From NCBI GenBank assembly GCA_017432485.1, contig JAFRJB010000105.1, forward strand, positions 1 through 64,000: a DNA stretch of 64,000 nucleotides, in the 5' to 3' direction. The translations under genes were made by a program, and so were the position numbers. This document shows positions 389 through 1,836 of this stretch, piece after piece. This DNA comes from Clostridia bacterium (GTDB taxonomy: Bacteria; Bacillota; Clostridia; Oscillospirales; Acutalibacteraceae). Below the pieces are notes generated by a model. The model saw nothing but the letters and a program-made list of their open reading frames with translations, was not told where the DNA came from and searched no databases. How positions within the stretch are numbered: position 1 is the stretch's first letter; each line of letters begins with the position of its first letter.

Positions 389-526
389 TCCGACATGCTC
401 AATTTTGTTGGAGTAAGAATGCAAATTAGAAAAGCTATAACAGAAGATATTGCAGCGCTCGGGAAGTTTTATGATGATGAAACCCGGTGGATGGATGCGC
501 ACGATTGCAATTACCCGCTGTGGACA

Positions 527-803
527 AGGGTAAAAGAAGTTGAGCTTTAACAGCCTCTCGCTCGCCCTTTTTAGCTAATTTATCCGATTTTTCGTTGATT
601 GGCGTTAGCCAATCTGCCTCAATATCGAAGAAATTATCTCAAAAATTACTTTGCGAGAGGTGCTTCGCAGTTTTGGTTAGCTTATTTTGCTCTAAGATAA
701 GGCAAAACGATGAAGAAATGCTATCGCATTGCGAAGCGTTTTAACGCAATATTAGGGGAAGAGAAGCAACCAAAACCTATTAAAGTCCAGCTCCTTTTAC
801 CCT
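527..803 (-). mobile_element. Inverted-repeat element A (about 277 bp, non-coding)
   Basis: The ends 527-549 and 781-803 are inverted repeats (19 of 23 positions complementary, beginning agggtaaaag). The interior has no convincing ORF. Read on the minus strand, 590-760 resembles the cores of elements B (923-1200) and C (1412-1687): a gttaaaacgc..cgcaatgcga block, then ttttgcctta, then ttttgagata, then a ttggctaacgccaa hairpin. It is inserted in the opposite orientation to B and C. No transposase is nearby, so it looks like a non-autonomous, MITE-like element. Confidence 0.75.
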
Positions 804-922
804 AGGGCTACCCGACCACTTCCACTGTGGAGTGGACAATCGGCGAAGGTACGCAGTTTTTGTGCACCGAAGGGGATGAAATTCTGGGTGCGTTTATGCT
901 CAATACCGACCCGCTCGGTCCA

Positions 923-1200
923 AGGCAGTACAGGCATTATACAAACCCGGTTTCTATTCGCTGCTTTGCCCACAAATTTCGTTAAAAATACTCGCAATAC
1001 ACGAAGTATTGACTGTGTTTTTTGCCTTATTTGTGAACAAATCAGCAGAATATAAACTGCAAGGCACTTAAAATCCTGATAGTTAAGATGAATTTGAGTA
1101 TTTGAGAACGCCGCTTGGCTGACGCCAATCAAGTTTGAAAATACTAAAATTCGCTTAAATAGCGGATTTTAAGCGGGTTTGCTTAGTGCCTGTACTGCCT
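923..1200 (+). mobile_element. Inverted-repeat element B (about 278 bp, non-coding)
   Basis: The ends 923-949 and 1174-1200 form a 27-bp inverted repeat with three mismatches, beginning aggcagtacaggca. Excision of exactly 923-1200 fuses GNAT codons in frame (..GlyPro-ArgLysValPro..), which supports these boundaries. An AG dinucleotide lies at the left end (923-924) and again just outside the right end (1201-1202), so a 2-bp target duplication is possible. The core, about 983-1133, aligns by eye with the cores of elements A and C (gcagaatataaactgca, cgccgcttggctgacgccaa), while the terminal repeats do not. Confidence 0.78.
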
Positions 1201-1411
1201 AGAAAAGTGCCTTGGAGCAAGGAATTGCAGCGAGGGGAATATATGATTCTTCACATGCTTGCCGTGGCGCACCGGCACTATGGCGAGGGCATTGCAAAGG
1301 CAATGACTCATTACTGTTTGGAGTATGCAAAAGCGCAGGGCTACAAGGGAATTCGCTTAGATGTGGTTCCCGGCAATTACCCTGCCAAAAAGCTTTATGA
1401 AGCCTGCGGAT

Positions 1412-1687
1412 TGCCCGACAGGAGCCGACCCCAAACAGGTTTCTATCGCCTGTTATGAGCCAATACTGCGTTAAAACGCCTCGCAATGCGACAGCATTCC
1501 TTCACCGTTTTGCCTTGTCTTAACAAAAAACAGGCAGATATAAACTGCACGCACCTGTCGCTTAAAGATTTTTGAGATAGTTTTTTTGCATTTGATGCCG
1601 CTTGGCTGGCGCCAAGCAAAGAAAAAGCGAGAAAAATAGCCAAAAAGATTAAGCGCCAGGCTGTTTGGGTTCGACTCCCGTCGGGCA
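1412..1687 (+). mobile_element. Inverted-repeat element C (about 276 bp, non-coding)
   Basis: The ends 1412-1438 and 1661-1687 form a 27-bp inverted repeat with three mismatches, beginning tgcccgac and containing cccaaacag. The interior 1468-1621 is the same core as elements A and B (gcgttaaaacgc, ttttgccttg, gatataaactgca, ttttgagatag, cgcttggctggcgccaag). The flanks are the GNAT C-terminal codons. A duplicated GC dinucleotide at both junctions is compatible with a 2-bp target duplication and restores a GlyLeuHisTyr reading. The right end also resembles a tRNA T-arm (gggttcgactccc), but no tRNA is encoded. Confidence 0.77.
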
Positions 1688-1836
1688 CTATGTCGGCGAT
1701 TGCGATTTGGAAAAAGGAGTCGAAAAAATACCCCTGTTTTCTCTGTTTGAACTGAATTTTTGACTTTATTTACTCTCAAAGCATGAGAGTTATTTTCACA
1801 GCCTATCTTATAATTTACTAAAATATGCAAGAAATT

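Follow-up and report, generated by a model that had tools for sequence, protein, structure and literature searches.

A family of ~277-bp MITE-like repeats in Clostridia with ends that pair within each copy yet differ between subfamilies and genera

Transposon ends are normally defined and recognised by a fixed sequence. A precedent for recognition by structure is provided by the REP/RAYT and IS200/IS605 systems, whose Y1 transposases recognise single-stranded DNA hairpins by their structure, and which, to our knowledge, make no target duplication and have short hairpins. The nearest known kinds to the repeat family reported here, referred to as E, are the bacterial TA-type MITEs, namely RUP, ERIC and Correia. 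The ends of Correia are not known to differ across copies, whereas those of E vary between copies. Long terminal repeats, TA termini, a target-site duplication (in E at several sites with an empty allele) and pairing of the two ends are found in both E and the Correia/NEMIS repeats of Neisseria, the latter having terminal inverted repeats of 24 bp (PMC2229807). The enterobacterial ERIC/IRU/RU-1 repeat of 127 bp is, like E, an orphan MITE-like repeat with TA termini and pairing between its 5' and 3' ends; however, its terminal repeats are 7 bp long, whereas E has a variable closing helix of 20-30 bp and a branched fold (PMC2229807). Neither ERIC nor Correia has a proven partner (PMC2229807), unlike the 107-bp RUP of pneumococcus, for which IS630-Spn1 has been proposed as the mover (PMC2229807, PMC3049150). 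E resembles RUP in being a small, non-coding, multicopy repeat with terminal inverted repeats, a stable fold and a TA target, which is located inside genes and other repeats. In contrast to RUP, the ends of which match one IS, the ends of E differ between subfamilies and genera and a partner IS was not found, and E is moreover 2.6 times longer, has two conserved arms and occurs in more than 60 genera. CIR of Caulobacter and Brucella is similar to E in its two long hairpin arms, linker and conserved exposed motif, but is without the closing helix of the two ends that E has (PMC2229807). With the TA-type MITEs, E has end pairing, TA and a scattered distribution in common; it departs from them in the branched two-arm fold, in its presence across over 60 genera and most of all in the ends, which are paired but unconserved. 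As a shared terminal sequence, one of the traits by which a MITE family is usually defined, is missing, E is filed here as a MITE-like variant rather than placed in any named family.

The window is the whole stretch of 64,000 nucleotides that was analysed, from a Clostridia bacterium (contig JAFRJB010000105.1 of assembly GCA_017432485.1). An original prediction, made from the letters of the window, had placed in it three related elements with self-complementary ends, all inside one GNAT acetyltransferase gene. Their coordinates and lengths proved right (Table 1), as did the orientation of E1, which is opposite to that of E2 and E3, and the core blocks listed for them are all present. That the three form one repeat family of ~277 bp with paired ends was likewise confirmed, and this family extends far outside the window. 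E1 and E3 are 78-79% identical over ~200 bp (blastn E 1.6e-30), which is far beyond chance, and E2 is more distant.

Table 1. Features of E1, E2 and E3 and of their host gene in the window; the covariance-model scores (104-121 bits for E1-E3) are from a model trained on copies that include E1-E3 themselves.
Feature	Position	Strand	Details
GNAT acetyltransferase gene, interrupted (pseudogene here)	419..1763	+	host pieces ~419-526, 804-922, 1201-1411, 1688-1763
E1	527..803	-	277 bp; subfamily with AGGGTAAAAGGAG... ends
E1 closing-helix arm	527..553	.	27 nt, 81% complementary to 777-803
E1 arm B conserved apical hairpin (TTGGCTNNCGCCAA)	595..612	-	alignment of copies
E1 arm A and mini-hairpin, most conserved part	662..777	-	covariance-model match, 120.6 bits
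E1 closing-helix arm	777..803	.	partner of 527..553
E2	923..1200	+	278 bp; distant subfamily with AGGCAGTACAGGCA... ends
E2 closing-helix arm	923..962	.	40 nt, 80% complementary to 1161-1200
E2 arm A and mini-hairpin	949..1065	+	covariance-model match, 110.6 bits
E2 arm B conserved apical hairpin	1110..1132	+	
E2 closing-helix arm	1161..1200	.	partner of 923..962
E3	1412..1687	+	276 bp; subfamily with (T)GCCCGACGGGAGTCGAACCC ends
E3 closing-helix arm	1412..1438	.	27 nt, 89% complementary to 1661-1687
E3 arm A and mini-hairpin	1438..1552	+	covariance-model match, 104.5 bits
E3 arm B conserved apical hairpin	1597..1619	+	
E3 closing-helix arm	1661..1687	.	partner of 1412..1438

With E3 as the query, 55 alignments were obtained across the 2.6-Mb genome, and an E2-type query gave 35 matches, a list that partly overlaps the one obtained with E3. 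A covariance model of arm A returned 75 matches in 1.14 Mb of the source genome, which were counted as ~50 separate loci because palindromic arms can match on both strands. Complete copies are mostly 273-283 bp in length, hence E consists, as is usual for MITEs, of short, non-coding copies that are many, scattered and near-constant in length. Copies were present in all six other same-genus genomes examined. A first blastn survey had suggested confinement to this one genus, which was overturned by the covariance model, as within the bacterial family arm A was detected in 84 of 200 genomes, representing 62 of the 135 genera (with rough E-values and with no more than 18 candidates scored per genome). 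A third, further diverged group of the family was also found (L338, L350, L335, L360, L341, L337 and L317), whose two arms, A and B, can be recognised as reverse-complement relatives, and this kinship suggests that the element arose as one large palindrome. Searches for the element by blastn against plasmids and phages and in Rfam gave no match, and a narrow literature search did not find a description of the family, which looks undescribed. In the IMG/VR viral collection, one contig holds a match to the E model of 65 bits (L399:4886-5001); some copies might sit in prophages or in mis-binned host DNA.

Complete copies fold into a closing helix formed by the paired ends (~20-30 bp in the copies selected as complete), followed by arm A, a mini-hairpin (CTGC...GCA) and arm B, with ~100 nt in each of the two arms. 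RNAalifold on aligned copies gave 87 pairs, 55 of which have two-sided changes. In the count of pair changes over 22 copies, the covariation score was 0.386, compared with 0.147 (sd 0.007) for shuffles and 0.06-0.10 for slid pairings. Invariant positions are mostly those of the arm-A internal loops (GTTAAAA, TTTTGCCTT), the AAACTGC block and the TTGGC...GCCAA hairpin and not those of the ends, and in aligned copies the closing helix varies more than the loops. Among 17 distant loci inspected, 15 were readable as a whole and had the same architecture, and the arm-A internal-loop sequences are kept across genera.

The central proposition of the original prediction, namely that pairing of the ends is kept while their sequence is not, was upheld within the genus, where 21 of the 22 closing-helix pairs were altered on both sides in 22 copies, and far more strongly between genera, as the left and right ends of 15 distant copies agree at 88% within an element, but at 44% between elements and at 37% in random sequence. 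One conserved terminal repeat was not seen among further copies; instead of a single family-wide terminal sequence of the MITE type, a likeness of ends was found at the subfamily level only, within the genus. Examples of these subfamilies are those with GCCCGACGGGAGTCGAACCC (E3), GGGTAAAAGGAGTCGAACC (E1), GGGCAAAAAGGTTTAAA, GGGTAAAAGCTGCCAAGCC, TGGGTTTAAGGATTCGAACC, AGGCARTACARTCA (E2) and GGGCAATAATACTATCGCACG; the subfamilies drift, and full independence of the ends within the genus is not supported. Between E1 and E3, the ends have a common inner consensus, which is GGAGTCGAACC-like and visible in an alignment of ~60 copies, so that the description of the three end pairs as unrelated goes too far for E1 and E3, although it nearly holds between genera, where agreement is close to that of random sequence. 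An inner GAGTCGAACC-like block is common to several subfamilies and recurs in several genera, hence some recognition of sequence is possible. The ends resemble a T-arm (GGTTCGACTCC), but an origin from tRNA was rejected, as the stems, when inspected, misfit tRNA and Rfam returned only a 13-nt tmRNA chance match.

If the pairing served a functional transcript, G-U pairs would be tolerated and A-C pairs would not be expected. For pairs predicted on both strands, which is a symmetric choice, 3534 Watson-Crick, 58 G-U and 53 A-C cells were counted, and a count per subfamily again yielded 58 G-U versus 53 A-C (40 versus 31 in the closing helix, 18 versus 22 in the arms), while the acceptor and T stems of control tRNAs at the same loci gave 22 G-U versus 1 A-C. 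Arm-B pairs selected on the forward strand only (69 G-U versus 14 A-C) and distant copies folded at minimum energy (108 forward versus 84 reverse G-U) lean slightly towards one strand, but the folds behind both counts favour G-U. The pairing constraint looks to act at the level of DNA, as it is strand-symmetric and G-U is tolerated no better than A-C. Among close relatives, changes within pairs comprise 46 double and 90 single ones (single versus double: 49 versus 24 in the closing helix, 41 versus 22 in the arms), a pattern closer to ordinary compensation than to instant templated correction.

Orthologues of the GNAT gene are uninterrupted in three same-genus genomes (G004, G001 and G006), and in comparison with these, 4 host bases are missing at E1, 3 at E2 and 4 at E3; the orthologues have a TAT codon at the sites of E1 and E2, and the site of E3 does not match one. 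Because 3-4 host bases are lost per insertion, clean excision mends the frame only at E2, where the gene would be one codon short of the orthologues, whereas end-to-end removal of E1 or E3 leaves it 4 bases short and the frame is lost. The predicted restoration of the frame by exact excision is therefore correct for E2 and incorrect for E1 and E3, which argues against an intron. A special link between the elements and the GNAT gene is not supported, given the empty orthologues and the scattering of copies across the genome. Positions 1-242 of the window hold the 3'-terminal part of a 23S rRNA gene, with the interrupted GNAT gene directly downstream.

Comparison with empty alleles revealed a TA flanking the element on either side at L019 (ATGTA-TA-GAGG), L011, L042 and L003, and at the empty sites of L023 and L024 the TA is eroded or inferred. 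TA is duplicated at several sites, while at others, the GNAT and nested insertions included, it is eroded or 3-8 host bases are lost. An intact TA flanks both sides at only 10 of 52 distinct sites, against 3.5 expected from shuffling, hence the case for TA targeting is made chiefly by the empty sites. Copies are also nested in one another: in at least four species (G000, G001, G002 and G005), several copies hold an E2-type copy in their arm-B apical loop, with ~8 bases lost, and further nesting was found in repeat X, palindrome W, a tRNA-Ala gene, arm A of other copies and a T-box-like hairpin. The nested copies suggested targeting of hairpin loops, but as a general preference this was rejected, since 51 distinct flanks were no more complementary than permuted ones (mean 3.37 versus 3.20, sd 0.18, 43/300).

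Searches with RVT_1, Y1_Tnp and DDE_3 and with end patterns found no autonomous partner. An IS630-type DDE_3 transposase was found in none of the seven genus genomes (drafts) and a multicopy transposase gene in none of the 1.15 Mb of G000; the end patterns matched copies of E, some of them truncated at contig ends, as well as one deletion derivative and one chance sequence, a search that a partner element with the same ends could escape where contigs break at repeats. The sole Y1 gene (L206) is single-copy and RAYT-like, and its GGGACGGTTC-type flanks are unrelated to the ends of E, hence membership of E in REP/RAYT or IS200/IS605 is not supported. This gene is flanked by GTAGGGTAGGGGACGGTTCTTTGCC and AAAGAACCGTCCCCTACCC, and one such end occurs alone elsewhere in the genome, at L061. 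The sole reverse transcriptase (L205) is located beside phage-like structural genes and near-identical template/variable-like repeats, and is probably that of a diversity-generating retroelement (DGR) in a prophage.

E is a multicopy, scattered element of one architecture, the ends of which are paired within a copy yet differ between subfamilies and genera. We see about an even chance that the three elements represent a MITE-like, non-autonomous DNA element of ~277 bp, widespread in one family of Clostridia and mobilised by a trans-acting enzyme that reads the fold and not the end sequence. Such an element would move as DNA, and an enzyme encoded elsewhere would recognise it in folded single-stranded or cruciform form, presumably by the conserved arm-A loops and the base of the closing helix instead of the sequence of the ends. 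The enzyme would cut at the foot of the helix and insert the element at or near TA, sometimes with the loss of a few target bases, and a mutation in one arm would persist only once the other arm follows, so that the ends would drift in step. We infer structural recognition of the ends, and hairpin-templated repair could also keep the arms matched. The more specific proposal, that the ends are read as the foot of a folded DNA structure, so that any paired end sequence works, and that the arm-A loops dock a candidate enzyme common to the bacterial family, is tentative and in our estimation rather unlikely.

The chief rival, which we hold to be possible without being probable, is that E is a TA-duplicating MITE of the ordinary type, formerly mobilised by an IS630/Tc1-like transposase reading short terminal and inner sequences, outside which the ends drift freely, and that the arms are matched passively, without selection, by quasi-palindrome correction during replication. 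This is consistent with the TA duplications at several empty sites, with the inner motif that is kept in several subfamilies and with a closing helix that is more variable than the loops, and strand-symmetric, Watson-Crick-only pairing is the outcome expected of templated correction. However, DDE_3 was found in none of the seven genus genomes and a multicopy transposase gene nowhere in the 1.15 Mb of G000, the closing-helix arms are ~220 nt apart, and in close relatives one-sided changes exceed double ones, unlike what instant correction would leave. Action as an RNA, whether as a self-removing intron, as the RNA of a retroelement or in the role of a structured regulator, with pairing selected in the transcript, could draw on the extensive covariation, the internal-loop sequences conserved across genera and the slight forward G-U bias in some counts, but is considered highly improbable: G-U equals A-C in both-strand pairs as opposed to the 22:1 of tRNA stems, E1 is antisense to the host gene, the frame is unrestored at E1 and E3, Rfam gave no match, and the sole reverse transcriptase resembles that of a DGR. 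On the orientation of E1, the frame at E1 and E3 and the G-U/A-C comparison, an RNA intron was rejected, and the RNA-level removal that the original prediction had raised is not supported. Group I, group II and other self-splicing introns are disfavoured, as E1 is antisense and no core fold was matched in Rfam, and a structured non-coding RNA is disfavoured by the G-U-tolerant covariation test against tRNA.

Hardly any credence is left for a core that inserts into pre-existing palindromes, with the variable ends being captured arms of host sequence or repeats. Copies do lie within palindrome W, repeat X, arm-B loops and the anticodon stem-loop of tRNA-Ala, but the GNAT site and other empty sites are without a palindrome of the end sequence, flanks are no more complementary than permuted, and the ends of a subfamily recur at unrelated sites.

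An old and large family with freely covarying ends uncouples the pairing of the ends from their recognition. Should structure be the feature recognised, as in the reading that we prefer, E would be one of the few natural examples of structure-directed DNA mobility other than HUH elements and integron cassettes; should passive correction match the arms, hairpin-templated mutation would be cleanly recorded here in nature. The share of this genome taken up by the family is of the order of 1%, and its nesting in tRNA genes and other repeats will confuse the assembly and annotation of gut Clostridia.

Some of the sequences that harbor E are themselves repeats. Repeat X (L175-L204; e.g. L017:1410-1481, 1754-1805) is a second structured repeat of ~120 nt with two hairpins, which has roughly 5-23 matches, mostly empty, in each of the seven genus genomes; in at least nine of its copies E occupies one particular internal-loop position, and its orientation there is always the same. 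Palindrome W (L218, L217, L220, L222, L228 and L018) has arms of ~100 bp, between which E lies exactly in the centre, with ..GCGCCAGCTCCATA on one side and TATGGAGCTGGCGC.. on the other, and is present in at least six near-identical copies in G000. In repeat V (L003/L110/L127; ..GCGAAGAGCGGTGAGGCGGGTACCGAA..), E elements of two subfamilies occupy the same TA or a position near it in three species. On the reverse strand of L008, a tRNA-Ala-like gene is split by E in the anticodon region, where the stem is partly lost, and a neighbouring tRNA-Ala-like gene shows an apparent interruption of its D-loop by a further repeat, Z (GGCGACGCGCTCC..TTGCGACTATGTTT).
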